NCBI GenBank assembly: GCA_001802565.1
Contig: MGYS01000009.1
Span: 80,202 to 117,098 of the forward strand
Origin: Gammaproteobacteria bacterium RIFCSPLOWO2_02_FULL_57_10
GTDB lineage: Bacteria; Pseudomonadota; Gammaproteobacteria; Pseudomonadales; Pseudohongiellaceae
Reading direction: 5' to 3'
DNA length: 36,897 nt
A program made the translations under genes and the position numbers. Below are positions 6,054 to 29,475 of this stretch, one piece after another (the stretch's first letter is position 1; each line of letters opens with the position of its first letter). The notes beneath the pieces are model-generated. The model was given only the letters and a program-made list of their open reading frames with translations, was not told the DNA's origin and ran no database searches.

Positions 6054-6087
6054 TGTCACAAGTCGAGCATTCCGTCCTCGTGACATT
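6052..6087 (+). other. Stem-loop after the binding-protein gene
   Basis: AATGTCAC (6052-6059) pairs with GTGACATT (6080-6087) around a 20-base loop, starting at the stop codon of the binding-protein gene. There is no strong U-tract. Such hairpins after binding-protein genes often stabilise the upstream mRNA or reduce downstream expression. Confidence 0.55.
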
Positions 6088-6104
6088 TTAAGAAGGGTAT
6101 CTCC

Positions 6105-6920: not shown

Positions 6921-6928
6921 GAAACGGT

Positions 6929-7714: not shown

Positions 7715-7756
7715 ATTAATTGATTTGACACTGAGTTAACCCGGAATCCAGAAAAG

Positions 7757-8485: not shown

Positions 8486-8507
8486 AAGAGATATTTGAGG
8501 CATTAAC

Positions 8508-9152: not shown

Positions 9153-9244
9153 GCCGCATAAGAATATAAGTTCAATAACGCGCAGGACGACCTGCTGGCG
9201 TTTTCAGTAATCCTGGGACGACCCACGTCAGACAGAGAGTAGTC

Positions 9245-12844: not shown

Positions 12845-14651
12845 CATACTTGATTTGCGCATAGCAGAAGTACACGACGCTTATGCCAATGGACGGGAAA
12901 CGCCCGAATCCTTGATTGCCAAGCTTCGCACCCAGGCTCTGGCCCAAAGTCAGTTTAATGCATGGATCTACTTGTTAAGTGAACATGAGCTCCAGGTTTA
13001 CTTGGATGCCCTAAAGCTCAAGCCTTTTGAAGAATCTCCGCTTTGGGGCATCCCTTTTGCGATCAAGGATAATATCGATCTCAAAAATGTACCAACCAGT
13101 GCTGGCTGCGAAGCTTTTACTTACACACCCGGACGATCCGCAACGGTTGTTGAGCTGCTTATTGACGCCGGTGCCATACCACTGGGCAAAACCAACCTTG
13201 ATCAATTTGCTACCGGCCTTGTGGGCACTCGTTCTCCTTTTGGTGAAGGCAAGAACGTCTTTAACCCGGACTATATCAGTGGCGGCAGCAGTGCGGGTTC
13301 CGCCATCGCAACAGCGCTGGGTCAAGTCTCTTTTGCTCTTGGTACTGATACTGCTGGGTCAGGGCGAGTACCTGCTGCTTTTAACAATTTGATTGGTCAC
13401 AAACCGACTAAAGGCCTGCTGAGTACCAGCGGAGTGGTGCCTGCCTGTAAGTCTTTGGACTGTGTGTCCATTTTTGCGCTAACCACAGAAGACGCCGTGC
13501 GGGTTTTGGACGTCGCAACGCTCGCAGATGACAACGATCCCTACTCACGAAAAAACATCACATTCAATACGCAACCCTACTGGAGTGATAAAGCACCGGA
13601 AGCCTTTCGCTTCGGAATTCCTGATCAACTTGAGTTTGATGATGTGCGGGCAGAAGAATTGTTTCATATTGCTTGCCAGCAGCTTGAGGCGCTTGGAGGC
13701 CAATCCGTTACGATTTATTTTGAGCCTTTCATGAAGACAGCGCGTCTGCTCTATGAAGGTCCCTGGGTTGCAGAGCGTGCATGGGCAACACAAGATGTTA
13801 GCCCCAGTGCAATGTTGCCGATAATTCAGGACATTCTAGCGACAACAAAGAAATTTGGGGTGACCGATGTGTTTGATGCGCAGTATAAACTGCAAGCTTT
13901 AAAACGAATCTGCGATCGCGAACTGGATCAAGTTGACTTTGTAGTGACGCCAACAACCCCCACTTGCTATCTCAGGTCTGAGATAGCACAACAACCAGTT
14001 GCATTGAACTCCAGACTTGGCACCTACACGAATTTTATGAATCTGCTCGACTACGCTGCCACTGCAATCCCGGTTGGACGATTGAGTTCACAAGTCAGTT
14101 GGGGAGTGACTTTGTTCGGCAAAGCCTTTACCGATATTCGCTTATTGAGTTTTGCCGGAGCATTACAGAGGCAACTCAATCTGCCCTTAGGCGCCACGCC
14201 ACACACCTTGCCAGCACAATCGGTAAAACCTGCCCGTACTGCGCCTGCGGAGTCAGTTGCAGTTGTTGTGTGTGGTGCCCATTTATCGGGACAGCCGCTA
14301 AATTGGCAATTACAGGATCGCGGCGCCACACTCAAAATGAAAACCCGTACAACCCAGGCCTATGCCTTGTTCGCACTGCCGGACGGAAAGCGCCCCGCGC
14401 TTGTTCAAAAAGAAACCGGCTCTGCCATTGAAGTGGAAGTCTGGCAATTGCCGATGGCAGAGTTTGGCAGTTTTGTAGCGGGTATTCCGTCGCCACTTGG
14501 AATCGGCAAGGTAGCTCTGGAAACAGGAGAATGTCTTCCGGGTTTTATTTGTGAAGAAGGTGGGATTGCTGATGCTGAAGACATATCACATTTTGGTGGG
14601 TGGAGAGCCTATCTGGCGTTTTGCTCCACCCGGAAATTAAAAAAGGTGTGA
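12837..14651 (+). CDS. atzF: Allophanate hydrolase
   Basis: This 604-residue amidase-signature enzyme hydrolyses allophanate to ammonia and CO2, the final step of the pathway. The Ser-cisSer-Lys triad is visible: Lys77 in PFAIKDNID, cis-Ser151 in the GGSSAGSA motif, and nucleophile Ser175 in TDTAGSGRVPA. After the amidase domain (about 1-440) comes the AtzF C-terminal domain (about 470-604) typical of full-length enzymes. The ATG at 12837 overlaps the carboxylase stop by 8 bases and is preceded by AAAGAGG, so the two genes are translationally coupled. A frame-compatible ATG at 12813 is less likely. An exact 10-bp inverted repeat with a 4-base loop lies inside the gene at 13965-13988. Confidence 0.95.
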   Translation: MTDILDLRIAEVHDAYANGRETPESLIAKLRTQALAQSQFNAWIYLLSEHELQVYLDALKLKPFEESPLWGIPFAIKDNIDLKNVPTSAGCEAFTYTPGRSATVVELLIDAGAIPLGKTNLDQFATGLVGTRSPFGEGKNVFNPDYISGGSSAGSAIATALGQVSFALGTDTAGSGRVPAAFNNLIGHKPTKGLLSTSGVVPACKSLDCVSIFALTTEDAVRVLDVATLADDNDPYSRKNITFNTQPYWSDKAPEAFRFGIPDQLEFDDVRAEELFHIACQQLEALGGQSVTIYFEPFMKTARLLYEGPWVAERAWATQDVSPSAMLPIIQDILATTKKFGVTDVFDAQYKLQALKRICDRELDQVDFVVTPTTPTCYLRSEIAQQPVALNSRLGTYTNFMNLLDYAATAIPVGRLSSQVSWGVTLFGKAFTDIRLLSFAGALQRQLNLPLGATPHTLPAQSVKPARTAPAESVAVVVCGAHLSGQPLNWQLQDRGATLKMKTRTTQAYALFALPDGKRPALVQKETGSAIEVEVWQLPMAEFGSFVAGIPSPLGIGKVALETGECLPGFICEEGGIADAEDISHFGGWRAYLAFCSTRKLKKV

Positions 14652-15613: not shown

Positions 15614-16717
15614 TCAGAGCTGGTCCCAGGTAGCCCAGTCGATAGCCCTTCCTGGATAGGCCACATTCGAAAATGGCCAGCTTTGCTCTATCCACATCTG
15701 TGTCCATTCGTAAAGTATCGCATCAAATCCTGCATCAAAATCGGCCTGCGTGACCCACATTGTAACCTCGGCGTCATATCCCGGTTTGCTGCTTGGCTTG
15801 ACGTAGACGCTGCCCATTTCTCGCTCGCCATCCTGTGTGAGTACACCGTAGGCGAAAGATTCACGGCGTTCGAAACGGCCTTGCTCATTCAACATGTCCT
15901 GCATAGCCTCTTCAGCAGTGATGCCTTCATGGGGCCAACTCCCAGTACGGGAAAAAGTCTTTTGTAGATGATCAATCGATGACATGTAAGCTGCGTAGTC
16001 GATATCCACTAGTTCCGGACCAAGGGGTACCAGCTTGAAACCCCAGCCCCCGACAAGTACCGAAGGCTCGAACGCTTCCGGAATAAACGCGTCATCAGCA
16101 GCCGCTTGTTCCTTCATGGTATCCAGGAACTGTTTGTACTGTCTGTAACCGTCAGTCATGGCCCGAGAACAGTCAAGGGGTGTATCACGCACACCATCGG
16201 TACGCTTGCACGGCCCCTCCATCACCTCAGGCATATTTTCCTGAACCCACACTCTGGCATCGCGGTAAATGGGTTGATCATTGGAGCTGGTATCGACATT
16301 AACAAGAACGCCATCTTCAAATGTCAGATGAAAGGTATCCGTAACATCGAACCCTGTCTCAAGAGCCTGCACCAGATCATCCTGCACGGTGATGGGACAG
16401 GCTATCGTGCCTCCTTCTTCAAGAGCACAAGGCGTACGAACCAGTACCTTGTAATTGAGCCCTTCAGCCGAGGACTGGTAGGCGAGGATACCCGCAGCGG
16501 AATCACCCGCCTCTCTGAGAAATGATTGCAACCTGGTCGCATCAAACGAATAGAACGCATCGATCATTCCTTCCGCCTTTTCAAGGTTTGCGGCCAGTTC
16601 TGTTTTTTCAGGTTCTGTTGCCATCTCCGTGGTCACCTCCGCATCATTGGAACAAGCGGCCAGACCAAACAAACATAATGTAGAAACTGCAGCTCGTTTC
16701 TTTAATGACCTGTACAT
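15614..16717 (-). CDS. Two-domain lipoprotein: NTF2-like plus possible GNAT-like domain
   Basis: This 367-residue predicted lipoprotein has a clear lipobox (FGLAAC, Cys22), so it is membrane-anchored and faces the periplasm. Residues about 45-190 look NTF2/SnoaL-like (MIDAFYSFDATRLQSFL; GFDVTDTFHLTFEDGVLV). Residues about 215-360 resemble a GNAT-type acetyltransferase fold (SFAYGVLTQDGEREMGSVYV, then a WV strand); I base this on pattern only and give it low weight. The gene is convergent with the MBL gene, 10 bases apart, and is preceded by GGAGAATTTTCC. A second, N-terminal-only homologue (21548-22159) and two broken fragments (18538-18626 and 22455-22692) of the same family lie on this island. 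Function unknown. Confidence 0.75.
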   Translation of the reverse strand: MYRSLKKRAAVSTLCLFGLAACSNDAEVTTEMATEPEKTELAANLEKAEGMIDAFYSFDATRLQSFLREAGDSAAGILAYQSSAEGLNYKVLVRTPCALEEGGTIACPITVQDDLVQALETGFDVTDTFHLTFEDGVLVNVDTSSNDQPIYRDARVWVQENMPEVMEGPCKRTDGVRDTPLDCSRAMTDGYRQYKQFLDTMKEQAAADDAFIPEAFEPSVLVGGWGFKLVPLGPELVDIDYAAYMSSIDHLQKTFSRTGSWPHEGITAEEAMQDMLNEQGRFERRESFAYGVLTQDGEREMGSVYVKPSSKPGYDAEVTMWVTQADFDAGFDAILYEWTQMWIEQSWPFSNVAYPGRAIDWATWDQL

Positions 16718-16793: not shown

Positions 16794-18305
16794 TTAAAAT
16801 GAGTCCGCAAAATCGTCCACTAGCTCCTGCAAGGAATCCGGGGAGAGTTGACCGATATCCTTGATCACTACCGCGCCAAGCTTATTCAGTTCTGAATCCA
16901 GCAACTGTTGCACCAAATCGGTACAGCCGCCGCAGCCTGTGGATGCCAAGGTCTGAGTCTTGATTTGGGCCAAAGTAGTTGCGCCATTTCTTACTGCACT
17001 TGTAATGACCAGCTTGCATACATCGTTACAGTAGCAAATCGTATCAGTGTCGGCGAAGTCATCGACAAAAGTTCCGTCACTTTTTGTGCCGGGCAAAATC
17101 ATTTCCTGAGGATCTTCCGGAAGCTCATTCCTATTCAGCACTATTTTCAGAAAATTTTCGTAGTCACCAACATCCCCGACAAGCACTGCGCCGAGCAAGG
17201 TTTTTCCATCCTCGGAAACCACCAGGCTTTTGTATATATCTCCCGAAATATCACTGTAGGAATACGTTTTTGCACCCGGCGTGCGGGCAATAGAATCGCC
17301 AATACTCGCCACATCCACACCCAGCAATTTAAGCTTGGTGCTCATGTCTGAACCTTTGAATTTAGCTTGTCCTCCAGTTATATGTGACACCGCCACTTTT
17401 GCCATTTGATATCCAGGGGCTACTAATCCAAAAATCCGGCCTTCCCAGACGGCGCACTCCCCAATGGCATAAATATTTTTCTCGGATGTTTGGCAATGAT
17501 CATCAATCGCAATTCCGCCACGATGACCCAGGCTTATTTCGCACTTTTTAGCTAACTCATCCTGAGGGCGAATTCCCGCAGAAAAAATAATCATATCGGT
17601 TTCAAGATGGGAGCCATCGGTGAAATTCAAGCGGTATCGGTAACGTTCTCCATCACTAATTTCCAGGGTGCTTTTCTGGGTGTGAACGTTCACGCCAAGC
17701 CTTTCAATTTTGTCACGTAAAAGCTTGGAGCCCCCGTCGTCCAGCTGCACTGACATCAGTTTTGGTGCAAACTCCACTACATGAGTTTCAAGGCCCATGC
17801 CTTTTATAGCGTAGGCTGCCTCCAGCCCTAGCAAGCCACCACCAAGCACTACCCCAACTTTGCTTTGACCGCCGGAGACCTTAATCTTCTGGAGATCTTC
17901 TATTGTTCTGTACACATGACAATGTTCCTGGTCATTACCTGGAACCGGGGGCACAAAAGGATAGGAACCGGTGGCTAACACCAGCTTGTCATAGGCTTTT
18001 AAACGACCACTTTGAGTAATAATCCATTTTTCTGACTTATTAATATCAACCACTTTATCGTCAAGAATGAAATTCACACCCTTGTTGCGATAATATTCTC
18101 TCTCGGCGAGTGCCAGATCGGCAGCAGTAGAACCTGAAAAATAGGTGCTGAGATGAACCCTGTCGTAGGCCAGCCTCGGCTCTTCCGAAAAGGTGGTAAT
18201 TTCATAATCATCAGCGTTGTCGCTAGCGAGAAGATATTCGATAAACTGGTGACCAACCATACCGTTTCCGATTACGACAACCTTTTGCTTTTCCTTTGTA
18301 TTCAT
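16794..18305 (-). CDS. NirB-like FAD/NAD(P)H oxidoreductase with BFD [2Fe-2S] domain
   Basis: This 503-residue flavoprotein matches the N-terminal half of assimilatory nitrite reductase NirB: an FAD-binding GNGMVGHQ at 13-20, a second dinucleotide fold with VVLGGGLLGLEAA, an FSAGIRPQ segment, and a BFD-type [2Fe-2S] domain with Cys424, Cys426, Cys458 and Cys461. It ends at a normal stop about 40 residues later and lacks the siroheme/[4Fe-4S] reductase half of NirB (about 850 residues); no siroheme domain is encoded nearby. It is therefore more likely a stand-alone electron-transfer reductase, for example for nitrite reductase components encoded elsewhere or a ferredoxin/rubredoxin. It has its own sigma-54 promoter, fitting a nitrogen role. 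GAGAG precedes the start. Confidence 0.85.
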   Translation of the reverse strand: MNTKEKQKVVVIGNGMVGHQFIEYLLASDNADDYEITTFSEEPRLAYDRVHLSTYFSGSTAADLALAEREYYRNKGVNFILDDKVVDINKSEKWIITQSGRLKAYDKLVLATGSYPFVPPVPGNDQEHCHVYRTIEDLQKIKVSGGQSKVGVVLGGGLLGLEAAYAIKGMGLETHVVEFAPKLMSVQLDDGGSKLLRDKIERLGVNVHTQKSTLEISDGERYRYRLNFTDGSHLETDMIIFSAGIRPQDELAKKCEISLGHRGGIAIDDHCQTSEKNIYAIGECAVWEGRIFGLVAPGYQMAKVAVSHITGGQAKFKGSDMSTKLKLLGVDVASIGDSIARTPGAKTYSYSDISGDIYKSLVVSEDGKTLLGAVLVGDVGDYENFLKIVLNRNELPEDPQEMILPGTKSDGTFVDDFADTDTICYCNDVCKLVITSAVRNGATTLAQIKTQTLASTGCGGCTDLVQQLLDSELNKLGAVVIKDIGQLSPDSLQELVDDFADSF

Positions 18306-18347: not shown

Positions 18348-18363
18348 AGCAAGGAAAGTGCCA
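18348..18363 (-). promoter_or_regulatory. Sigma-54 promoter of NirB-like gene
   Basis: Read on the minus strand, TGGCAC-TTTCC-TTGCT is an exact -24/-12 match. Transcription should begin near 18336, leaving a leader of about 30 bases that contains the GAGAG ribosome site. No perfect NtrC dyad is seen upstream. Confidence 0.78.
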
Positions 18364-18537
18364 ATAGGAATGGGTTTAGTTAGATGGGCTTGAAAGCGTA
18401 TGATTACGTTTTTTTGAAACCATTCATGCTTTATTGACTGCACTATAAGAAATCAATACCCATACTTCGGATTCAATATGGTGCGATTTTGAAAATTGCT
18501 TTAATGAAGAATTCCAGCTTGTCAGCTTTATGAGTGA

Positions 18538-18626
18538 ACGACGCAGTGGGTGGAAGAAAACTGGCCGTTTGCAGAGGTAGCCTACCCAGGTCGATCCATT
18601 GAATGGACCGCCTGGGATCGGCTCCA
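18538..18626 (+). pseudogene. C-terminal fragment of the two-domain lipoprotein family
   Basis: After a stop codon at 18535-18537, the frame encodes QWVEENWPFAEVAYPGRS followed by IEWTAWDRL, closely matching the last 27 residues of the intact protein at 15614-16717 (WIEQSWPFSNVAYPGR then AIDWATWDQL). Nothing else of the gene is present, and the homology ends just before the 3' end of the convergent desaturase gene. It is a remnant left by duplication and deletion. Confidence 0.85.
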
Positions 18627-18635
18627 GTTGATTAC

Positions 18636-19673
18636 CTACAAACTCTTGAGGCGTTTGTCGGAATAGAAGGCCAGCATAAGCTGGTCTTTGATGGAAAGGC
18701 GAACGCCTTTGCCAGCGCCAGCGGGTCCCACCTCAGCATCGCCGCAGTAAGTGCCGAAGACGCGGTCCCAGAAAATGATGTCACAACCGTAGTTGGAATC
18801 TGCCTGACGGCGCTCCTGTGCATGGTGGCAATGATGCTGCTGTGCGGTAGCAAAGAACCAGTCCCATACAGGCATTGAAACCATAGGCAGGTTGGCATGG
18901 TTGAATTTGCCGTTCCACATGCCGAAGGCTGCTGAAACGATGAAAACTTCATCGCTGGCACCCATCAGGGCCAAAGCCATTGGAGTGCCGAGGCCAAGCG
19001 CCAGATATTCGAATGGATGGGTACGGTTGCCGCGCATGGCGCTCATCTTGGTCAGGTGATGATGGGTCGCGTGCATACGCCACCAGAACAGTGACTCGTG
19101 CTGAATCCGATGCAGCCAGTAGTAGAAAAAGCTGGAAACGAATCGGATACACAGCGCGGCGGCAATCAGCCCGAGCACTGTAGTGGGTTGAAATTCGATC
19201 TGCAGCGGAGACATATCACGCAGGGCGAGGAAGCCGTCAGAAACTGGCGTGCGATACAGGTCGGAAATGATAGGACCCCAAAGCAGGGCCCCCGAAGCCA
19301 TCCAGAACACGTCTTCCAGCATTTCGTCGGGCTTGAGCAGCCAGGACTTTTTCTTGGCCCAAAAGCGTTCTGCGATCAGCAGAAGAGGCGTGGAAAGGAC
19401 CGCAACGAACAGTGCCCATACTCGGTAGTACTCCCCACCCCATTCGTTTACCACAATGGCGGCGACCAGAAGCATTGAGCCCATCACCAGAAGCGGCTGG
19501 GGCAGCGCCCAAAGAATTGCCTTCTTGTTCCACGTCACTTTGCTGCCTTCGGTGATTATCCCTTCTTCGGTGCGCACTATTGGCTTGCCGGAGGGGCCTA
19601 TCTCGGGTGATGAGCGGTCCACCGAGTCAATCGGGTTACCCATGTCGAGAGGGTTTAAGTATTGATCAGTCAT
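18636..19673 (-). CDS. Fatty acid hydroxylase/sterol desaturase family membrane protein
   Basis: This 345-residue integral membrane di-iron enzyme carries the histidine boxes of the superfamily: His188 and His192 (HRIQH), His201 with His204-206 (HATHHH), a lone His259 (FNHANLP) and His280, 281, 283, 284 (HHCHH). Hydrophobic segments lie near 58-76, 84-101, 123-137 and 164-187. Such proteins use O2 to hydroxylate or desaturate lipid chains or sterol-like substrates; the substrate here is unknown. A 50-residue soluble N-terminal tail precedes the first helix. CAGGAG lies before the ATG. It follows the pilin-like gene by 72 bases on the same strand and is probably co-transcribed with it. Its 3' end abuts a lipoprotein-gene fragment, a sign of local rearrangement. 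Confidence 0.9.
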   Translation of the reverse strand: MTDQYLNPLDMGNPIDSVDRSSPEIGPSGKPIVRTEEGIITEGSKVTWNKKAILWALPQPLLVMGSMLLVAAIVVNEWGGEYYRVWALFVAVLSTPLLLIAERFWAKKKSWLLKPDEMLEDVFWMASGALLWGPIISDLYRTPVSDGFLALRDMSPLQIEFQPTTVLGLIAAALCIRFVSSFFYYWLHRIQHESLFWWRMHATHHHLTKMSAMRGNRTHPFEYLALGLGTPMALALMGASDEVFIVSAAFGMWNGKFNHANLPMVSMPVWDWFFATAQQHHCHHAQERRQADSNYGCDIIFWDRVFGTYCGDAEVGPAGAGKGVRLSIKDQLMLAFYSDKRLKSL

Positions 19674-19745
19674 TACTGCTGCTCCTGAGTTTTTTGGCTG
19701 ATGGTTAGGTTGAATTGATTAGTCGTGCATTGCATTGTTGGTAAT

Positions 19746-20525
19746 CTAGCAGGCGTCTTTACCACCACAAGTCCCAGTGATTGCCCACTCAACTTCTCCG
19801 TCCTCGATCTTTGGGGTAAGAATATAGGTCACCCCATCCAGGTTGGACTCATCCTTCATCCATGTCGCAATGATCTGGCCGTCGATGACGGAAATGCCGT
19901 GGGCCTCTTCAGAAACAAGCACCTCATCGGGCAAACCTGCCTCTCCGCTATCGAGAGAATCCATGTCGACGGTGCTCCCGGATAGCAGAGCAGCCTCTAT
20001 CGTGTCTTGGATAGGCTCGACCATATCGACCAGTTCGCTATAGCGAAACTCAATGTTCAATTCTTCGTAACCGTCTACATTTCTCACCAGATAGATGACA
20101 ACTAATGCACCCAAAACACCCGCGAATGCGAGTAGGGCCAGCCGCTGCTGCTGATCTGGCTGAGTTTCACTCGCGTCCATTGAATGCTCGATTGAGTTGG
20201 AGTTTTCGGTAGATTCGGACACAGTGCCAGATGCAAAGGACTTATCGGCTGTGGAACTGCCCACTTTCTCGCCGACACCGTCACCCAGACCCAAAGCGCC
20301 CAACTGGGCAACGCCCCAGGCCATCAGGATAACGACCAGCGCACCGATGAGTTTGTTATCGCCTTCGAATTCCAGGTAGCCCCAGATGGGAATGCAGATA
20401 ACGATCAATGCAAAGCCCGTAACCAACGGAGGAAATTCTCTCCCGGCAATTTTCACAGTACTTTCCATCTTGATCTTCGTTAACAGGAGATCAAACTTAT
20501 CGACCAGATTGTTCCAAGTTTCCAT
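19746..20525 (-). CDS. Multi-helix membrane protein with pilin-like C-terminal domain
   Basis: This 259-residue protein has three hydrophobic helices (about 36-55, 60-80 and 127-144), with an acidic Ser/Glu-rich stretch before the last. The C-terminal 100 residues resemble the globular domain of type IV pilin PilA: a helix ending MVEPIQDTIEAALLSG, a strand pair ISVIDGQIIATW, VTYILTPKI, then VEWAITGTCGGKDAC with two Cys able to form the pilin C-terminal disulfide loop. Lacking a prepilin leader, it is more likely a membrane-tethered relative or assembly partner than a fibre subunit. I start at 20525: an upstream ATG at 20642 would fall inside the sigma-54 promoter. Another pilin-like gene is divergent from it. 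Function unknown. Confidence 0.7.
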   Translation of the reverse strand: METWNNLVDKFDLLLTKIKMESTVKIAGREFPPLVTGFALIVICIPIWGYLEFEGDNKLIGALVVILMAWGVAQLGALGLGDGVGEKVGSSTADKSFASGTVSESTENSNSIEHSMDASETQPDQQQRLALLAFAGVLGALVVIYLVRNVDGYEELNIEFRYSELVDMVEPIQDTIEAALLSGSTVDMDSLDSGEAGLPDEVLVSEEAHGISVIDGQIIATWMKDESNLDGVTYILTPKIEDGEVEWAITGTCGGKDAC

Positions 20526-20637
20526 ATCAGCCCCCGCCTCTTTTTGAGACAAAAAACAGAAGAATGCTCCGAATCTGTGCGATTTGGCGCTATACACCGC
20601 CAAAAGCATCCAGAAACAGTCAGATGTAGATTTATAT

Positions 20638-20653
20638 AGCAATTACTGTGCCT
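20638..20653 (-). promoter_or_regulatory. Sigma-54 promoter of pilin-like/desaturase unit
   Basis: On the minus strand AGGCAC-AGTAA-TTGCT matches the -24/-12 consensus except its first base. The start would be near 20626, about 100 bases before the ATG at 20525. In Pseudomonas, major pilin genes are sigma-54/PilR-controlled, so the type of promoter suits a pilin-like gene. Confidence 0.65.
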
Positions 20654-20664
20654 AGCTTAGCTAG
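20652..20664. repeat. 13-bp palindrome at the -24 box
   Basis: CTAGCT-T-AGCTAG is a perfect dyad that ends exactly at the -24 element of the minus-strand sigma-54 promoter. A protein bound here would compete with polymerase. The regulator is unknown. Confidence 0.5.
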
Positions 20665-20793
20665 TGGCGCTTGGTGCCAGCCCCGTCAGCATTCCTGCAG
20701 GACCTGCTCATAGGCAGCAATGAAGTCTGAAGTCCTTTCGAAGAAAGCCATCGGCTCTGAACAGAAAGCCCGACAGAAAATTAATCGGCGCTC

Positions 20794-20809
20794 GGGTGCG
20801 AAAATTGCA
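20794..20809 (+). promoter_or_regulatory. Possible weak sigma-54 promoter of pilin-like gene
   Basis: GGGTGC-GAAAA-TTGCA keeps the essential GG and GC pairs at correct spacing but differs from TGGCAC at three positions. It points at the pilin-like gene starting at 20871. It is weaker than the other three and may be chance. Confidence 0.35.
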
Positions 20810-20870
20810 TCTTGATGTGCGTCTGCAATAGTGCAGGACATCACCATCTACAGAATTGGAGTTCAGCTCG

Positions 20871-21425
20871 ATGAAAAAACCGCAAACACGGAACCGGCAG
20901 TGGGGGCTCACAACCTCCGAGATGATTGTCTATCCCATGATAGTAGTAGTGCTTATAGGAGTTGCCTTTGGTTTTTTCCACAACTCCAGAATCGACGACG
21001 CAGTGTCCGCTGCCGTTGATCTGGGGCTGGAGCAGCAGGCAATTATTGAAGAGTACTTTGATACCTACGGCGAGATGCCGCAGTCAGAAGCGGACATCAA
21101 CCTGAGCTCTTTCATTCCGGAAGGCATTCTTATCGGTATGGACTACCGGGCAGGCGAGTTGGGAGTACCTGCTGCCGACAAATTACGCATCGGAACGCTC
21201 AGGGCCCTGGTAGATATGACAGAATTTGGTACACGATTTGAAGACATTGAATCTGGCTTCCTGCTCATTGCGCGAGCCCAGGACGACGACACCATCAAAT
21301 GGGACTGCGTGGCGGACGTGGTCACAGTAGACGCCTTAGGCAGGCGCTACTTGCCAGAGACCTGTAGCCGCGCGGACGGCGACGGAGATGAGGAAGGGGA
21401 TGGCGAAGAACTGGAAGAAGAGTAA
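20871..21425 (+). CDS. Type IV pilin-like protein
   Basis: This 184-residue protein has a type IV prepilin-like N-terminus: a short basic leader MKKPQTRNRQWG, then LTTSEMIVYPMIVVVLIGVAF, written in two parts as LTTSEMIVYP and MIVVVLIGVAF, with Gly at -1 and Glu at +5 as the prepilin peptidase and assembly machinery require. The globular part ends with two Cys (WDC and PETC) that could close a disulfide loop, then a strongly acidic tail (DGDGDEEGDGEELEEE). GGAG lies about 10 bases before the ATG. Residues 131-148 are encoded again, 54 of 56 bases identical, in a fragment beside the right att site (29497-29552). No pilus assembly genes are nearby, so it would rely on machinery encoded elsewhere. 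Confidence 0.75.
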   Translation: MKKPQTRNRQWGLTTSEMIVYPMIVVVLIGVAFGFFHNSRIDDAVSAAVDLGLEQQAIIEEYFDTYGEMPQSEADINLSSFIPEGILIGMDYRAGELGVPAADKLRIGTLRALVDMTEFGTRFEDIESGFLLIARAQDDDTIKWDCVADVVTVDALGRRYLPETCSRADGDGDEEGDGEELEEE

Positions 21426-21547
21426 AGGTGATGGACACCTTACAACCCTCTCAGGGACTTACCCAGCCACCCTGGCAGCACGCCAATCAGGAACACGCAA
21501 TTGTATTTTTACACTAACCCCATTTATTCCCTGTACTCGGAGATACT

Positions 21548-22159
21548 ATGAACACTTTTCGCCGCTCGATCACGATCACCTCTGTGGCCTGCCTCGCCGC
21601 CTGGCTAGGCGTCTGCTCGGCGAACGCGCAGCCCGAAGCCGCCGCCGATCCAGATCTGGTAATCGCGGAGTCCTTTATCGACGCCTTCTACTCCTTTGAA
21701 CCCGACCGTCTAGCGCCGATCATGGCGGCGGCGCCGGAGACCGCACCGCGTCTGCTCTACTACCAGGGCTCGGCGAAGGGCGGGAACTACGAGGTGCTGC
21801 TGCGCACGCCGTGCGCCCGGGACGAAGAGGGGATCGTGAACTGCCCCGTGAAGGTCAAGGACGATCGCGTGCAGGCGCTTGGCACGGGCTTCGATGTCAC
21901 CGACACCTTCCACCTCACCTTCGATGACGGTGTGCTCATCAAGGTCACGACCAGTTCGAACGATCAGGACATCTATCGCGAGGCCGCGGTGTGGGTGCGC
22001 GAAAACATGCCTGAGGTGGCGGAAGGCCCCTGCAAGAACCGGGGGACGATGGAGGGCACGCCCGTGGAGTGCTCGCGCGCCATGACCGCCGGTTACAACG
22101 CCTTCGTCGCAAGCCCGGACTTCCCCGGCGTGCCGCCGCTTCCGGAGGAGGCTCAGTGA
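21548..22159 (+). CDS. Secreted single-domain NTF2-like relative of the lipoprotein at 15614
   Basis: This 203-residue exported protein (signal peptide with cleavage near ANAQ28) is homologous to the first half of the two-domain lipoprotein at 15614-16717: SFIDAFYSFEPDRLAPIM, LLRTPCARDEEGIVNCPVKV and GFDVTDTFHLTFDDGVLIKV all align. It ends where the second domain would start (a Pro-rich PDFPGVPPLPEEAQ tail) and has no lipobox. Its coding sequence is much richer in G+C than neighbouring island genes and it is followed by two strong G+C-rich hairpins, which suggests a separate, more recent origin. Function unknown. Confidence 0.75.
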   Translation: MNTFRRSITITSVACLAAWLGVCSANAQPEAAADPDLVIAESFIDAFYSFEPDRLAPIMAAAPETAPRLLYYQGSAKGGNYEVLLRTPCARDEEGIVNCPVKVKDDRVQALGTGFDVTDTFHLTFDDGVLIKVTTSSNDQDIYREAAVWVRENMPEVAEGPCKNRGTMEGTPVECSRAMTAGYNAFVASPDFPGVPPLPEEAQ

Positions 22160-22224
22160 TCAGGCCGACTTCCGCGGCCTGATCACGATCGGGACCGGAG
22201 CGACCCCGGCCGATGCCGGGGTCG
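22156..22224 (+). terminator. Two consecutive strong hairpins after the NTF2-like gene
   Basis: GTGATCAGGCC/GGCCTGATCAC (22156-22166 with 22176-22186) overlaps the stop codon, and CGACCCCGGC/GCCGGGGTCG (22201-22210 with 22215-22224, loop CGAT) follows. Both stems are perfect, 11 and 10 bp. Neither has a U-tract, so they may be transcript-stabilising or Rho-associated rather than true intrinsic terminators. Confidence 0.6.
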
Positions 22225-22454
22225 TGCGCTTCAGGCCAGCGTGAAGGCGATCATCGAGGATGATGAATACCAGGGGACAGGTACAACATTCGTTAACTGG
22301 GTTTCAGATATATCGCAGTAACTACATATTATCTTTGTAAGCTTGTCTGGACCCCAGCCCTGATTACTCCTAAATGAACTTCGCTTGACCTCCAGTTCAT
22401 CATGCGAAAGAGCACTGACTACAAACTCGCTACTACCAAGTATCCTCTCATCGC

Positions 22455-22692
22455 CTAAACATCGTTACCAGGTTTGTCACTTGGTCTGGCATACACGCAG
22501 CCAAATTCACGCGAGCCGTCTTTAGTAAGCACAGCATAAGCAAAGGATTCGCGCTCGTTAGAACGCTTTTCCTCGTTCACCATATTCTGCATGGCATGCT
22601 CATCAGTGATATTTGCGTGGGGCCAAGTGGCACCAGATTAAAGTCATCAGTCTCTACCAACATCGGTGGTTCGAATTCTGAAGGAACAAAGC
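22455..22692 (-). pseudogene. Broken fragment of the two-domain lipoprotein family
   Basis: On the minus strand the segment encodes SFVPSEFEPPMLVETDDFNLVPL, aligned as SFVPSEFEPPMLV then ETDDFNLVPL, with the intact protein (AFIPEAFEPSVLVGGWGFKLVPL region). After a deletion and frame change it continues WPHANITDEHAMQNMVNEE and RESFAYAVLTKDGSREFG, matching WPHEGITAEEAMQDMLNEQ and RESFAYGVLTQDGEREMG. It stops at GNDV where the intact protein reads GYDAEV. The internal deletion appears to have joined at a shared TTGGCCCCA-like sequence. Confidence 0.85.
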
Positions 22693-22759
22693 TGCAAAGA
22701 TAATTAAAGACAGAGTAGATCCATAGAAAATGTGATGGTCAAAGTAAAAATCAAAATAG

Positions 22760-22781
22760 CGAAGTAAGTTTCCTAACTTCG
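22760..22781. repeat. Inverted repeat, possible enhancer for the receptor operon
   Basis: CGAAGTAAG (22760-22768) and CTAACTTCG (22773-22781) form a dyad with one mismatch and a 4-base centre. It lies about 165 bases upstream of the -24 element at 22946, a usual place for a sigma-54 activator site. Confidence 0.45.
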
Positions 22782-22852
22782 ATCGATCAAAGTTTGGTAG
22801 AGCACAACAATTGCTTATACCGCTTGCCCTAAAAAGATTCTCCAGGCTCCAT

Positions 22853-22911
22853 TTTAGCGCAGCATAACCTACCTCTTTGCTGCCTTTTAGCGCAGCCACC
22901 AGCCTTTAGCG
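22853..22911 (+). repeat. Three direct repeats of TTTAGCGC
   Basis: TTTAGCGC occurs at 22853, 22886 and 22906 (approximate starts), the first two extended to TTTAGCGCAGC. They lie 35-95 bases upstream of the sigma-54 promoter of the receptor gene and may bind a regulator. Confidence 0.45.
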
Positions 22912-22945
22912 CCATTTTTTTGCAGCGTCGACGTAAAAATTTGTC

Positions 22946-22961
22946 TGGCATTGTTATTGCA
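22946..22961 (+). promoter_or_regulatory. Sigma-54 promoter of TonB receptor operon
   Basis: TGGCAT-TGTTA-TTGCA matches the -24/-12 consensus at all but the sixth base, with correct spacing. Transcription would start near 22973, giving a leader of about 115 bases before the ATG at 23090. Confidence 0.72.
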
Positions 22962-23089
22962 TCGTGATTGCCAAGTGCAATCCTCCGCACGCTAGAAATT
23001 TGAGCAGGCGTGGCGGATAGAGCGTTGAACATAAACCGGTAATCTGCAATGAGGGGTACAAAATGACATTTTACTACAAGGGAAACACC

Positions 23090-26000
23090 ATGAAGAAAAA
23101 GCTATTAGTTCGAGCTATAGGTGCAATCTGCGCCACCACACTGCTCGGCACCGAGGCAATGGCACAATCTGAAGCAATTGAAGAGGTGCTGGTTACCGGT
23201 TCGCGCATCTCCAGAAACAGTGCAACTGAAGCGGCTAGCCCAATTGCCGTTATCGGCGGCGAAAGCATTCGCACTGCCGGTCAGGCTGACCTGGGCGAAC
23301 TGCTTCGCGAATCGCCAGCACTGAACAACTCGCTTCCGGCCAGCTTCTCCGCTATTAGCGATGCTGGCACAACTGATGTCGACGTCGGTCTGGGTCTGCT
23401 CGACCTGCGTGGACTGGGTGCCCAGCGAACCTTGACTCTGGTTAACGGCCGCCGCCACGTGGCTGGTGGTCAAGGCACCGCGGCTGTAGACGTAAACTCC
23501 ATTCCCACAGTGATGGTGCAGCGGGTTGAAACCCTGACCGGCGGCGCTTCTGCGGTATACGGTGCCGACGCCGTATCCGGTGTTGTCAACTTCGAGTTGC
23601 GGGAAGGCGGTGACTTCGACGGTATCGAAATAACTGCCCAAACTGGTCTGTCCAGCCAAGATGACGCTAACGAAAAATATGTTGCTGCAGCGACCGGTTT
23701 CGAATTTGCTGACGGCCGGGGCGAAATGGTATTTGCCGTTGAGGGGCAATCAAACGATGCAGTTCGCTCCAGAGACCGTGCGTCATTTGCTGGACCTTAC
23801 GAGGGTAATGACATCAATCAGACTGATCAGATTGCCGCGCTTACCGGCACTAATCCGGCTGCAACCCGTGCCTTCGTGCGCCCCACAACGAATCCGATTT
23901 CCTCACCTTATGGCGTGTTCAATCTGTCCTCTGCTGACGGCTTCGGCGCGGTGCTTGACGCTGCCAATAATGCCCGTGACGGCTTGCCACAGCAGTATAT
24001 TCCCGGCACCAATGTTCCTCTGGTGCAGGTGATAACAACGCCTATCAATGGTATCCCGCGACCTTATAACCCGGGCTTCGTGTCCAACGTAAACCAGGCC
24101 TACGGTATCGGTGACGGCTTGCAGAACGTGAAGGCAGCCATCCTGCCGAAGCAGGAACGATACAACATCAACCTGAACGGCAGCTTCGATGTCAGTGAAT
24201 CGCTTACATTCTTTGTTGAATCAAAGTACGCCTACTCGAACAACGTTGACGACCTCGCCGGCGTGGACTTCAACGACGCTATTCCAATTCAGTATGACAA
24301 CCCGTACATCCCGCCCGCGCTGCGGCTACAGATTAACGAACTGGCTGCTGTAGGCGTAATTCCTGCAAGCAACCCCAACGACGGCAGCTTCTGGGGCTTT
24401 GGGTCAAGCCGCGACAGTAACGACGATATCGTGCTTACCGGCAACGACGTTGACCGGGAAACCATCCGTATTGTGGTTGGTATTGAAGGCGAGTTGGATA
24501 TAGGCAGCGGTGTCGACTATGAACTGTCTTATAATTACGGTGAGACAACGGTCGAGAACCTGAACCTCAACAAGCGTATCGAAGACCGCTTCTACGCTGC
24601 TATGGACGCGGTGGTTGATCCTGCAACCGGGGATATCGTCTGTCGCTCTACCCTGGACCCCACCGCCCAACCACCGCTGGCCACAAACATAAGCCGCGGG
24701 CGTCTGCGTACACAAACCTACCCGGTGCCTGAGTTCACTGCGACGAATGCCACCGGTAACGGACGATACGTGGGAATTTCTTCGTTCACGCCTGGTGCGG
24801 GTAGCCCCTGCGCACCGTTCAACCCATTCGGTTCGAACTCAACCTCGCAGGCCAACGCCGACTTTGTTTACCCGGACCTGCTCGATATTTCTGAGCTGGA
24901 GCAAAACATTATCTTCGGCAACATCTCTGGCGACACGGACAGCTTCTTCGAACTGCCTGGCGGCCCAATCGGTTGGTCTGCTGGCGCGGAATACAGGGAA
25001 GAGAAGAGTGCATTCATCGTGAATCAGCTCGACCTTGACCTGGTTACATGGGACGCCTCCAACGGTAACGCGAACCTGCCGATCGCTGGCGAATTCGACG
25101 TGTTCGAATACTTCTTCGAAGTCCAGGCCCCGATTATTGCCAATGAGCCTGGCATCGAATTGCTGGAAGTTACCGGTGCGATGCGGTTTGCGGATTACAG
25201 CACCGTGGGCAACAACGAGGCCTGGTCAACCGGCCTGCGCTACTCACCGGGCTTCGGTTTGACTATTCGTGGAACCTTCGGTGAAGCGGTACGTGCACCG
25301 AACATCACCGAGCTGTTCTCACCCCAGCAGCCTTCGTCCTACGGATTCCAGAACGATCCATGCTCCGTCGACAACATCAACAACGGCACATCGAATCGTC
25401 CGGGTAACTGTGCGGCTATCGGTGTCCCAGCTGGCTACGATGTGAACGACTACATCACAGCTGGTATTCCGGGTGTGACGGGTGGTAACCCCGACCTGAA
25501 CCAGGAAGAGGCAACAACGTTTACAGCTGGTATCGTCTATGAGCCTGCCTTCGTCGAAAACCTGACCTTTATCGTTGACTACTACTCAATCGAGATCGAA
25601 GGTGCGATCGATAGCTTGTCCTCGGTGGCTATTTCAGAGCTCTGTGTTGACCTGCCGTCCGTCAATAACGATTACTGCGGGCTAATCCAGCGTGCGCCTG
25701 AAGGTTTCATTACCTATCACCAGTCTGGTCAGGTAAACCTGGCTGCGTTCGAATTGGAAGGTATCGACTTCGGTGTTGATTATGGCTTCGAGCTGTCTTC
25801 TCTGGGTCTGGATGACTGGGGCGGTATGGACTTCAGCTTGCAAGGTACTCACATGCTTGGCTTCGATGAGTTTCAGGATCCTCTGGATCCCTCTATCTTC
25901 GAGAGCCGCATGGGTGAATTTTCCTATCCCGAGTGGATCGTTAACGCCCGTGCCAGCTGGACACTCGGTGATCTGAGCCTGAGCTGGGCTGGTCGTTGGG

Positions 26001-26248
26001 AGGAAAGTCAGCTTCTGTCTGGTATCTCCAACCAGCAGATCAATGCAAACCCGCTGTTCGTCGATCCTTCGCAGACTGGCGATTCATGGGTGCATGACAT
26101 CAACTTCGCCTACATCTTCAGCGAAAGCATCAATATCTACGGTGGTCTGAACAACGCCTTCGACGAGGAACCCTACCTGGGCACGCTGTCTCGCCCAGCC
26201 GGTCCTCGCGGTCGCTTCGGCTTCGTAGCAGTGAACTTCAAAATCTAA
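23090..26248 (+). CDS. TonB-dependent outer-membrane receptor
   Basis: This 1,052-residue outer-membrane transporter has a signal peptide (MKKKLLVRAIG, cleavage after AMAQ), a TonB-box-like EEVLVTGSR at 31-39, a plug domain with DLRGLGAQRTLTLVNGRR and GGASAVYGADAVSGVVNF, and a large beta-barrel ending in the aromatic-rich GRFGFVAVNFKI typical of outer-membrane sorting. The start at 23090 is preferred over 23063 because it gives a regular signal peptide. It resembles the large plug-and-barrel receptors common in marine and soil gammaproteobacteria; the ligand cannot be predicted. It is led by a sigma-54 promoter and followed by a strong terminator, then HupE/UreJ and two MBL-fold genes on the same strand, with which it may act in uptake. 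Confidence 0.93.
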   Translation: MKKKLLVRAIGAICATTLLGTEAMAQSEAIEEVLVTGSRISRNSATEAASPIAVIGGESIRTAGQADLGELLRESPALNNSLPASFSAISDAGTTDVDVGLGLLDLRGLGAQRTLTLVNGRRHVAGGQGTAAVDVNSIPTVMVQRVETLTGGASAVYGADAVSGVVNFELREGGDFDGIEITAQTGLSSQDDANEKYVAAATGFEFADGRGEMVFAVEGQSNDAVRSRDRASFAGPYEGNDINQTDQIAALTGTNPAATRAFVRPTTNPISSPYGVFNLSSADGFGAVLDAANNARDGLPQQYIPGTNVPLVQVITTPINGIPRPYNPGFVSNVNQAYGIGDGLQNVKAAILPKQERYNINLNGSFDVSESLTFFVESKYAYSNNVDDLAGVDFNDAIPIQYDNPYIPPALRLQINELAAVGVIPASNPNDGSFWGFGSSRDSNDDIVLTGNDVDRETIRIVVGIEGELDIGSGVDYELSYNYGETTVENLNLNKRIEDRFYAAMDAVVDPATGDIVCRSTLDPTAQPPLATNISRGRLRTQTYPVPEFTATNATGNGRYVGISSFTPGAGSPCAPFNPFGSNSTSQANADFVYPDLLDISELEQNIIFGNISGDTDSFFELPGGPIGWSAGAEYREEKSAFIVNQLDLDLVTWDASNGNANLPIAGEFDVFEYFFEVQAPIIANEPGIELLEVTGAMRFADYSTVGNNEAWSTGLRYSPGFGLTIRGTFGEAVRAPNITELFSPQQPSSYGFQNDPCSVDNINNGTSNRPGNCAAIGVPAGYDVNDYITAGIPGVTGGNPDLNQEEATTFTAGIVYEPAFVENLTFIVDYYSIEIEGAIDSLSSVAISELCVDLPSVNNDYCGLIQRAPEGFITYHQSGQVNLAAFELEGIDFGVDYGFELSSLGLDDWGGMDFSLQGTHMLGFDEFQDPLDPSIFESRMGEFSYPEWIVNARASWTLGDLSLSWAGRWEESQLLSGISNQQINANPLFVDPSQTGDSWVHDINFAYIFSESINIYGGLNNAFDEEPYLGTLSRPAGPRGRFGFVAVNFKI

Positions 26249-26271
26249 GTCGATGTAGAAGATAGAAAACT

Positions 26272-26299
26272 AAAAGGGCGCTCTTCGGAGCGCCCTTTT
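26272..26299 (+). terminator. Intrinsic terminator after the receptor gene
   Basis: AAAAGGGCGCTC (26272-26283), tetraloop TTCG, then GAGCGCCCTTTT (26288-26299): a 12-bp perfect stem with a UUCG loop, ending in a short T run. It lies 23 bases after the receptor stop. Since no promoter is seen between it and the next gene 30 bases on, readthrough must occur or expression of the next genes is attenuated. Confidence 0.88.
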
Positions 26300-26329
26300 C
26301 CACAGTCTTGGTTTTCCAGGAAAGCAGGA

Positions 26330-27496
26330 ATGAGGCTATACAAAGTTATCTGCGGGTTATGTTTGTTGTTTATAACAACCGTTGCCCAAGCTCACCTCCT
26401 GAACATGACAGACCTGCACCTGGATACTACAAATCCAGAAGCAGTTACCTTGCGAGTCAAAATAGACTTGGGACAGTCTTTGTTATCACCGCAAGAATAC
26501 TGGCGTACGGTGAATATGGACTCCCGTGAACAGTTGGTAAACCTTGAGCCCGCGGTCAATAAATTGCTGGATGGTCTCGGCATTTTCGTTAACGGTGTGA
26601 CAGCTGCCGCCACCCTGGAAACCTGGAGCCTAACTGCGGCATCGCTTGAAGCCATTGAAAACCCTCTCTCTCCTCAAATGGCAGAGCTTACATTCAACTT
26701 TGGCAACTTGGGATTGGAGTCCTCAACTGCGCTAGCCAATGCATCAATCGAACTGCGCATTGCCGACTGGCTGGAGGTTCCTTGGCCAGCCTTACTGCGC
26801 ATCGATTCCGCCTCACGCCAGCTACCCGTATCTCGACTGCTAACAAGTAGTGATCGCAGCAGTCGATCAGTGCCACTAAGCGCGGATTCTGCGGTAGCTG
26901 GTTCGTCGTTTGCGGCGAAGCTGGCAACGGCATTTCAGAGTTGGATACCGGGCTTGAGTTGGTTGGCAATCGGATTTCAGCACATCATTCCGTGGGGCTT
27001 GGATCATATCGTGTTTGTTTTGGGCTTGTTCTTTCTGTCTACACGGTTGTCGACACTATTCTATCAAGTTAGCTGTTTTACCGTTGCGCATTCACTGTCG
27101 CTTGGACTTGCCACTCTGGGCATGGTGTCAGTGCCGGCAAGCATCGTAGAACCTCTTATTGCAGCCTCGATTATCTATATTGCAGTTGACAACCTTTACA
27201 GCAATTTTTTAGCGCGCTGGCGATTAGTCGTAGTGACACTGTTTGGACTGCTACATGGTTTAGGCTTTGCTTCGGCGCTGTCTGAACTCATGTTGCCCGC
27301 AGAAAACTTTTACACAGCCCTGTTGATGTTCAACCTTGGGGTTGAAGCAGGTCAGATTGCAGTGTTGGTATTGGCTTTTGCAGCAGTTGGCTGGCTGCGT
27401 AGCTGGACTGCTTACACTGAACGCGTCGCTCGTCCGGCTACTGTCACGATTGCTGGTGTGGGTACTTATTGGTTATTAAAGCGAGTACTATTTTAA
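26330..27496 (+). CDS. HupE/UreJ family membrane protein
   Basis: This 388-residue protein has a signal peptide (cleavage near AQAH22), a periplasmic domain of about 180 residues, then six or so C-terminal helices of the HupE/UreJ_2 type. Family marks are GFQHIIPWGLDHIVFVLGLFFL, read as GFQHIIPWGLDH then IVFVLGLFFL, FTVAHSLSL, VEPLIAASIIYIAVDN, FGLLHGLGFASAL and FNLGVEAGQ, with conserved His, Asp and Glu that could bind a metal. Classical HupE/UreJ proteins are nickel permeases, but no urease or hydrogenase gene is present here, so the metal and role are open. AGGAAAGCAGGA precedes the ATG. Its stop overlaps the next start by one base (TAATG), so it is translated with the MBL gene. Confidence 0.88.
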   Translation: MRLYKVICGLCLLFITTVAQAHLLNMTDLHLDTTNPEAVTLRVKIDLGQSLLSPQEYWRTVNMDSREQLVNLEPAVNKLLDGLGIFVNGVTAAATLETWSLTAASLEAIENPLSPQMAELTFNFGNLGLESSTALANASIELRIADWLEVPWPALLRIDSASRQLPVSRLLTSSDRSSRSVPLSADSAVAGSSFAAKLATAFQSWIPGLSWLAIGFQHIIPWGLDHIVFVLGLFFLSTRLSTLFYQVSCFTVAHSLSLGLATLGMVSVPASIVEPLIAASIIYIAVDNLYSNFLARWRLVVVTLFGLLHGLGFASALSELMLPAENFYTALLMFNLGVEAGQIAVLVLAFAAVGWLRSWTAYTERVARPATVTIAGVGTYWLLKRVLF

Positions 27497-28485
27497 TGGG
27501 TCTAATTAAACACTCTGAAAAACTACGCGCCATCGCAGGTATTGCGACGGTTGCCTCCTTGTTACTGGTTTTTGACGTGGCGTTTTCAGCCATGGCGCCA
27601 CCACGCTTGGCTTTCCCTCTCGATGAGCGAGCACCTGGTGAATTTCCCGATAGCTGGATACATGGCTCCAAGTCAGCAATGGACAACGATGATCCAGCAG
27701 TCCAAGTGCATGCTTATAACGAACACACCTATATTCTCCGCGAGAACAAGGCGATAAATTACGAGGGTGCATTCATGTACCTGTTTTTTGGCAATGAGGT
27801 AGCCATGCTGATTGATCAGGGCTCTACTTCTTCGCCTGCGCTATTTCCTCTTCGCGAAGTAGTCGATGAAATCATTGATGGTTGGGAAGAGCGTAACGGC
27901 CAAGAGAATATTGAGTTGATTGTTGCCAACAGTCATTTGCATGGTGACCACTACGCTGCATGGAATCAGTTTGTCGATCGGCCCAATACAGTCATGGTTG
28001 GATTGACCCATGAAGAGGTGATGGCATTTTGGGGGATTGATAATTACCCGCAGCAAATTGTTAACTTTAATCTTGGCGGAAGGGAGTTGGTAGTAACAGG
28101 AACCCCGGGACATCAGGGGTCAGAGTTGGCGATTTATGATGGCTGGACCGATCTCCTATATACGGGCGATATGTTCTATCGCGGTCGCCTCTATATTGAG
28201 GACTGGAATGCATGGGCTGCAAGCATTCAAAAACTGCGCAGTATTGCGGATCAAAACCCTGTCGTACATCTGGTAAATAATCATATAGAAATGACCACAG
28301 AACCTGGGGTCGACTATCCAGTTGGCACAACTTGGCAGCCCAGCGAACCGCCTATGCAGATGACTCTTGAGATGCTTGATCAAGCCGTTGAAGCAAGCTT
28401 CGAAATTGAAGAACCTGGCATATATACCTACGATGATTTTCTGATTTATAACCAGGTGCCCTGGTCATACACAACGGACCAATAG
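27496..28485 (+). CDS. MBL-fold metallo-hydrolase with intact metal site
   Basis: This 329-residue protein carries an N-terminal signal or anchor segment (about 12-32), so it is exported. Metal ligands are intact: HLHGDH with His147, His149, Asp151, His152, then His206 (TPGHQGSE), Asp225 (YTGDMFY) and His263 (NNHIEMT). It is homologous to the MBL proteins at 14692-15603 and 28495-29475, sharing WIHG, YNEHTYILR and HIEMT. The ATG overlaps the HupE/UreJ stop by one base, so I use 27496 rather than the frame-compatible 27469. It is part of the HupE-MBL-MBL transcription unit. The substrate is unknown; the fold covers lactamases, lactonases and other hydrolases. Confidence 0.86.
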   Translation: MGLIKHSEKLRAIAGIATVASLLLVFDVAFSAMAPPRLAFPLDERAPGEFPDSWIHGSKSAMDNDDPAVQVHAYNEHTYILRENKAINYEGAFMYLFFGNEVAMLIDQGSTSSPALFPLREVVDEIIDGWEERNGQENIELIVANSHLHGDHYAAWNQFVDRPNTVMVGLTHEEVMAFWGIDNYPQQIVNFNLGGRELVVTGTPGHQGSELAIYDGWTDLLYTGDMFYRGRLYIEDWNAWAASIQKLRSIADQNPVVHLVNNHIEMTTEPGVDYPVGTTWQPSEPPMQMTLEMLDQAVEASFEIEEPGIYTYDDFLIYNQVPWSYTTDQ

Positions 28486-28494
28486 AGGCTAGCA

Positions 28495-29475
28495 ATGAAA
28501 AAATTATTTCTCGTCCTGGCCATCGTGCTAGTCAATGTTCAAAGCCAAGCTCAAATTTCATTCGACAGAGAAACGGCAGCGCCTGGCAATCTCCGGTTCA
28601 CTTGGATCCACGGCAGTCTGTCTGCTAAAGCTAATACTGATGTGCGTATCCAGGTACACCGATATAACGAGCATACCTACATTCTCAGACAAAACCCTGC
28701 GATTCACTGGGAAGCGCCTTTTATGTACCTCCTCATGGGTAACGAGCGTGCCTTGCTGCTCGATACAGGCGCGACCGAAGAAGCCGAGTACTTCCCACTG
28801 CGTGAGGTCGTGGATCAGGTATTAACCAGGTGGTCAGATGCGCAAGGAATTGAAATGCCTGAGCTTCTTGTATTGCCACTTGGTTCTGATCAGTCGCAGC
28901 TAGGCGCACTTGGCCAATTCAATGGTCGACCCAACACCGTGATAATACCGCCTACGGAAGAGTCACGAGATCAGCTTTTTGGTGAGGGATGGCATGAAGG
29001 CGGCCAACTTGACTTAGGTGGGCGCCTGTTGGAAGTTTTGCCAACCCCAGGTTTAGACACTGCTGCCATGAGTCTCTATGACCCTTGGGCCCAGCTTATG
29101 TTCACTGGCAATGCCTTCTATCCTGGTCGGCTGGTAATTAGAGATTTTAAGGACTACCGCCAATCACTCAGAGCTCTAGTCAAACTTGCTGATACCAAGC
29201 CCGTTTCCATGATCCTTGGTGGGCGTATCGAAATGACAAGTCAGCCTGGCATGGATTACCGGCTACGGACGAATTTTCGACCCAATGAACATTCATTGCA
29301 ATTGAGTGTGAGACATCTGGAGACAGCATTACAGGCAGTAACTCTGATCAATGGCACAACAGATATCCGAGTTCTGAACGATTTGATTCTCATGCATGGG
29401 GTAGGCCGTGGCGCACGCGACTCTGGTTCTCCGGTGTTCATACCGGAGCAGTTTAGAGCGCCCAATACCCGCTAG
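28495..29475 (+). CDS. MBL-fold pseudoenzyme (all metal ligands replaced)
   Basis: This 326-residue secreted protein (signal peptide, cleavage near SQAQ20) follows its paralogue by 9 bases and is alignable over its whole length. All expected ligands are lost: the HLHGDH block is GSDQSQ (130-135), the later His is Leu187 (TPGLDTA), the bridging Asp is Asn206 (FTGNAFY) and the last His is Arg244 (GGRIEMT). The rest of the fold, including WIHG, YNEHTYILR and the RIEMT tail, is kept and the frame is open, so it looks like a selected non-catalytic partner or binding protein rather than a decaying gene. A regulatory or complex-forming role with the active paralogue is inference. Confidence 0.85.
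   Translation: MKKLFLVLAIVLVNVQSQAQISFDRETAAPGNLRFTWIHGSLSAKANTDVRIQVHRYNEHTYILRQNPAIHWEAPFMYLLMGNERALLLDTGATEEAEYFPLREVVDQVLTRWSDAQGIEMPELLVLPLGSDQSQLGALGQFNGRPNTVIIPPTEESRDQLFGEGWHEGGQLDLGGRLLEVLPTPGLDTAAMSLYDPWAQLMFTGNAFYPGRLVIRDFKDYRQSLRALVKLADTKPVSMILGGRIEMTSQPGMDYRLRTNFRPNEHSLQLSVRHLETALQAVTLINGTTDIRVLNDLILMHGVGRGARDSGSPVFIPEQFRAPNTR

Follow-up and report, generated by a model that had tools for sequence, protein, structure and literature searches.

Sigma-54 promoters conserved across the units of a guanidine carboxylase-linked gene cluster in the Pseudohongiellaceae, with a probable nitrogen trigger for most of them

Introduction

Among the described systems closest to the gene cluster considered here, a group of transcription units linked to a guanidine carboxylase operon in a 36,897-nucleotide stretch of Gammaproteobacteria bacterium RIFCSPLOWO2_02_FULL_57_10 (contig MGYS01000009.1, Pseudohongiellaceae; this whole stretch is called the window), is the NtrC/RpoN regulon of Burkholderia cenocepacia H111. 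In that strain, expression of the urea carboxylase gene BCAS0272 is lower in an ntrC mutant, and the regulon lists neighbouring urea-carboxylase-related transporter and aminomethyltransferase genes (PMC5491218); the word guanidine is absent from the paper, and the parts of it covered here describe no unit of a TonB-dependent receptor with HupE and metallo-beta-lactamase-fold (MBL) proteins and no pilin-like/hydroxylase unit. Genome-wide sigma-54 predictions for Pseudomonadota, made by COG, include COG3665 (102 predicted regulated genes, 59% of them named urea carboxylase) and COG1251, the NAD(P)H-nitrite reductase; the present cluster is not described in the parts of that study covered here (PMC12316311). 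The carboxylase pathway has been placed under guanidine riboswitches, as in the window (PMC12508155, PMC12186494); these two papers mention no NtrC or sigma-54 control, whereas here a sigma-54 promoter and NtrC-type dyads are predicted upstream of the aptamer. Pilin genes can also depend on RpoN, an example being Xylella pilA1, which is probably activated through PilR (PMC3224663).

Control of urea/guanidine carboxylase by NtrC is thus already on record, as are nirB promoters of the sigma-54 type; our literature search found nothing joining guanidine with NtrC, the carboxylase and a riboswitch. What appears to be new are the receptor-HupE-MBL unit, the pilin-like/hydroxylase unit and the recurrent association of both with guanidine genes, none of which was found described in the literature searched. 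We consider it probable that the cluster, as a whole, is best explained as a set of units each with its own RpoN promoter, linked to the guanidine operon and, for most units, triggered by nitrogen limitation through NtrC.

Conservation of the sigma-54 sites

Each of the four units carries a -24 GG and a -12 GC element with the fixed 10-bp spacing, on the correct strand and upstream of the start codon (Table 1). Three of these sites, before the NirB-like gene, the pilin-like gene and the TonB-dependent receptor gene, had been proposed in the original prediction, and their coordinates, strands and mismatch counts were all confirmed, as was the placement within 30-115 bases of the start codon (42 bp, about 110 bp and 101 bp, respectively); the pilin-like distance refers to the likely ATG near 20525, not to the TTG at 20642. 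The guanidine operon site lies 306 bp from its ATG because the Guanidine-I riboswitch sits between them. The draft genome (100 contigs, from a marine-type bacterium) encodes RpoN (PF04552, E 7.9e-71), and the same scan, using an approximate matrix based on the general sigma-54 consensus and approximate gene calls from a simple gene caller, recovers glnA, glnK-amtB and a nitrate-type ATP-binding cassette (ABC) operon.

The earlier argument that four such matches are unlikely to arise by chance did not hold for the bare count, which is weak evidence and only mildly unusual: the window contains five matches at one mismatch or fewer, one of them intragenic, against 2.26 expected, and 5 of 100 shuffles reach five. 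The whole genome holds 167 such matches, against 99 for the reversed pattern. Many of the genome's matches are likewise intragenic, as expected if the -24/-12 matches were accidents, inflated by the many positions searched. The suggested comparison of island and genome densities gave a clearer excess, with three promoter-placed sites scoring at least 14 in 2.8 kb of the window, or four with the guanidine site, against 0.2 predicted from the six found in 85.8 kb of promoter DNA in an 800-kb sample of the same genome (Poisson probability about 1e-3 for three sites and 5e-5 to 8e-5 for four, at a threshold picked after the sites had been seen).

What settles the reality of the sites is their conservation in orthologues, which rules out chance. 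Among 137 genomes of one bacterial family (L114 and L155, apparently one genome, were counted once), a well-placed sigma-54 site was kept upstream of 10/10 guanidine operons (80-100% identity), 6/6 NirB-like genes (65% identity or more and upstream sequence of sufficient length), 17/17 pilin-like genes and 14/14 receptor genes (again 65% identity or more). With the matrix columns permuted, 2000 trials gave no mean as high as the observed one in any of the four units. From this comparison we infer transcription from these promoters.

The order of the units varies among relatives, and the rearrangement of the HupE-MBL-MBL genes is the best test of the predicted promoters. These genes lie behind the receptor in the window and behind the NirB-like gene and R367 in G047; seven genomes have them in divergent orientation to the receptor. 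In all seven of these (7/7) HupE is preceded by a sigma-54 site of its own, whereas in the four genomes (4/4) in which another unit's promoter reads it, no sigma-54 site above the cut-off was found within 260 bp, so that the promoter class is retained despite the changed gene order. Against the orthologue conservation, the permutation control and this rearrangement, an origin of the matches by chance can hardly be sustained, and the same three lines of evidence make predicted sigma-54 control of each unit well supported.

It is also very improbable that the conserved blocks are sites of another regulator which merely resemble sigma-54 promoters. In the pilin-like set even the spacer is almost unchanged, and the binding protein is a predicted one, both of which such a regulator would accommodate. 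What the units have in common, however, is confined to correctly spaced -24 and -12 elements; in the receptor set TGGCA-T/C and TTGCA are constant and the spacer bases vary while GG and GC stay; and the matrix that finds these sites also recovers glnA and glnK-amtB.

Table 1. Positions of the predicted regulatory elements and genes of the cluster within the window
Feature	Coordinates	Strand	Details
Second, weaker NtrC-type dyad, guanidine operon, CGCTCCGATTTTGTGCG	4569-4585	+	Position weight matrix score 14.1; 19 bp further upstream than the first
NtrC-type dyad, guanidine operon, CGCACCAACCCGGTGCA	4588-4604	+	91 bp upstream of -24, start to start
Sigma-54 -24/-12 element, guanidine operon, TGGCACGGAGCGTGCA	4679-4694	+	One mismatch
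Guanidine-I riboswitch, leader	4795-4939	+	Rfam RF00442, 85.3 bits
Guanidine-type operon	5001-14651	+	NCBIfam over cut-off: TIGR03427, TIGR03425, TIGR03424, TIGR02712, TIGR02713
NirB-like protein, 503 aa	16794-18305	-	Pfam; TIGR02374, 584.6 bits over 1-492 of 794 positions
Sigma-54 -24/-12 element, NirB-like gene, TGGCACTTTCCTTGCT	18348-18363	-	Exact
Two half-conserved NtrC-like sites, CGCACCATATTGAATCC and TGATTTCTTATAGTGCA	18439-18485	-	30 bp apart; upstream of NirB-like promoter
Fatty-acid hydroxylase/desaturase superfamily protein	18636-19673	-	PF04116, E 2.6e-26
Membrane protein, C-terminal half type IV pilin-like domain	19746-20525	-	30-35% identity to short pilins bearing GFTLIE motif
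NtrC-type dyad in pilin-like leader, CGCACAGATTCGGAGCA	20565-20581	-	Downstream of promoter
Sigma-54 -24/-12 element, pilin-like/hydroxylase unit, AGGCACAGTAATTGCT	20638-20653	-	One mismatch
NtrC-type dyad, receptor unit, GGCTCCATTTTAGCGCA	22845-22861	+	101 bp upstream of -24
Second, weaker NtrC-like site, receptor unit, TGCTGCCTTTTAGCGCA	22878-22894	+	Score 7.2; 33 bp downstream of the first
Sigma-54 -24/-12 element, TonB receptor-HupE-MBL-MBL unit, TGGCATTGTTATTGCA	22946-22961	+	One mismatch; ATG at 23063
TonB-dependent receptor, HupE/UreJ-type membrane protein, two metallo-beta-lactamase-fold proteins	23063-29475	+	Pfam PF07715/PF00593, PF13795, PF00753

NtrC sites and the question of a shared trigger

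The NtrC gene (L116; NCBIfam 752.7 against a cut-off of 620) stands beside glnA, about 40 kb from the window on the same contig. Its consensus occurs with three mismatches or fewer at 32 places in the genome, against 11 for a reversed control; these include places paired with sigma-54 sites at glnA, glnK-amtB and the nitrate-type ABC operon, and also the one before the receptor promoter. The NtrC matrix was trained on five dyads of this genome (two at glnA and one each at glnK, at the nitrate-type operon and in the stretch separating glnA from ntrC) and on eight guanidine-operon sites, and its background 95th percentile is 9.2 for 220-bp upstream windows.

The original prediction held that the units share a nitrogen trigger, and the upstream sites bear this out to different degrees. 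For the guanidine operon, in which it is strongly supported, the dyad is kept in 10/10 operons at 79-102 bp (mostly 90-91; p<=0.005 each), a score that is partly circular since the training used eight of these sites; 9/10 match the untrained consensus, and the second site scores at least 8.8 in 9/10 orthologues. A nitrogen trigger of the receptor unit is moderately supported by an upstream site independent of the training (p=0.010 in the window's genome, p<=0.05 in 12/14 orthologues), and that of the NirB-like gene is weakly supported, by half-sites that are kept in four close relatives and are individually weak (p about 0.05-0.2); L126 has a better one (p=0.008). For the pilin-like unit a nitrogen trigger is no more than possible, its dyad lying downstream of the promoter; this is the best leader site in 17/17 orthologues, where it scores 10.2-15.4 against the background percentile. 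The arrangement in the cluster resembles that of the genome's own glnA and glnK-amtB, in which a sigma-54 element is preceded by NtrC dyads about 90-120 bp upstream, with two dyads 30 bp apart at glnA; compared with these, the receptor-unit dyads are weaker and the pilin-like dyad is downstream. The dyads are conserved on direct comparison; NtrC binding and nitrogen as the trigger are inferred.

Several observations weigh against a common nitrogen trigger. In the window, the sequence preceding the pilin-like promoter yielded no NtrC dyad (p=0.504), no convincing dyad is present at the NirB-like unit, and 2/14 receptor orthologues have no upstream NtrC site at p<=0.05, one of which (L158) has little upstream sequence. 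Furthermore, the genomes belong to one family and are related, so that neither the conservation counts nor the co-occurrence p-values given below are independent trials.

Shared RpoN alone does not prove one trigger, because the genome encodes six full-scoring enhancer-binding proteins. One of them, L118, is PilR-like by sequence, with no NCBIfam equivalog over cut-off. The guanidine and receptor units may therefore answer NtrC while the pilin-like unit responds to PilR or a different enhancer-binding protein, the cluster being kept together for other reasons. The missing upstream dyad and the RpoN/PilR dependence known for pilin genes such as Xylella pilA1 fit such a division, which we regard as a real though somewhat doubtful possibility. 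However, most of the bona fide pilin genes examined from the family and order lack a sigma-54 site, which argues that the site was not simply inherited from pilA; an NtrC-type dyad stands in all 17 pilin-like leaders; and the pilin-like unit tracks the guanidine operon, the two co-occurring in 9/10 genomes (p=6e-9) and lying on one contig within about 20 kb in G025, G126, G086, G044, G047 and G076. Twelve genomes contain both the pilin-like and the receptor gene (p=4.5e-11), and relatedness makes both p-values optimistic.

Taking the NtrC/RpoN explanation as preferred, we propose that, under nitrogen limitation, the NtrB-NtrC system most likely binds the dyads upstream of the guanidine and receptor promoters and opens the RpoN holoenzyme there, and that the guanidine operon would additionally require guanidine, sensed through its riboswitches. 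NtrC probably drives the NirB-like unit as well, via its weak half-sites, and the pilin-like/hydroxylase unit would be RpoN-driven, with NtrC bound downstream in the leader or with another activator such as PilR; given the downstream position of the dyad, the activator of this unit is uncertain, and our literature search found nothing on enhancer proteins binding downstream. These unrelated-looking genes are probably switched on together when nitrogen is short.

A more specific and, in our judgement, unlikely version makes the cluster a nitrogen-scavenging module with a single NtrC/RpoN trigger, in which the receptor, the HupE-type protein, the metallo-hydrolases and the membrane hydroxylase would import some larger guanidino or ureido compound and degrade it, supplying the guanidine carboxylase pathway, and the pilin-like unit would be activated from its downstream NtrC site. 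In this analysis, no role in nitrogen metabolism was found for the outer-membrane receptor, the two metallo-hydrolase-fold proteins, the HupE-type protein, the membrane hydroxylase or the pilin-derived protein. The arrangement links all of them with guanidine use and with a probable nitrogen regulon, and so offers a concrete handle on the function of these genes. It also suggests double gating of guanidine operons, in which nitrogen status would act at the promoter and guanidine itself through the riboswitch.

Elsewhere in the data, three exact sigma-54 consensus sites lie within 1.6 kb directly downstream of a GlrR-like activator gene (L005-L007, L117; C85 17228-19850).

Composition of the cluster and related loci

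The protein encoded at 19746-20525 contains no GFTLIE-type prepilin motif in its sequence, and its Pfam Pilin match is below the cut-off; judged on these features it is not a type IV pilin, the resemblance being confined to a predicted pilin-like C-terminal domain. That its promoter is simply a pilA promoter passed down with the gene was also considered; as noted above, a sigma-54 site is absent from most of the related pilin genes. In the relatives examined the hydroxylase gene adjoins the pilin-like gene and runs in the same direction, and it presumably belongs to the same transcription unit.

The NirB-like protein consists of FAD/NAD(P) oxidoreductase, rubredoxin-reductase C-terminal and BFD [2Fe-2S] domains, the rest of NirB being absent. 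A second NirB is present as an 855-aa open frame at C41 of the genome. An NtrC-like dyad, TGCACCAAATCGGTACA, is also found inside the NirB-like gene (16909-16925) and is retained with small changes in two relatives.

The guanidine operon encodes an ABC transporter (TIGR03427 substrate-binding protein, permease and ATPase), UAAP1, UAAP2, the urea/guanidine carboxylase and allophanate hydrolase; the features that mark a guanidine carboxylase operon (carboxylase, allophanate hydrolase, UAAP1/2 and a guanidine riboswitch) are all present. In addition to the Guanidine-I riboswitch of the leader, the operon carries a Guanidine-II riboswitch (9179-9226) directly upstream of the carboxylase gene, with a score exactly equal to the gathering score. 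The pair also occurs in the relatives L234 and L236, and L229 has Guanidine-II only.

A second type of carboxylase operon, with 57-59% identity (L240 18-7251, L248 11349-19972), carries a sigma-54-like site of its own, and an internal Guanidine-I riboswitch separates its transporter genes from that for UAAP1. Paralogous genes of the fatty-acid hydroxylase family (58-63% identity) repeatedly adjoin carboxylase operons (L230, L232, L238, L242, L248). A lipoprotein-like family with no assigned function is represented in the window by one full copy and one shortened one, with what look like remnants lying between (15614-16717, 21548-22159, 18530-18630, 22450-22660), and it recurs next to carboxylase operons in relatives.

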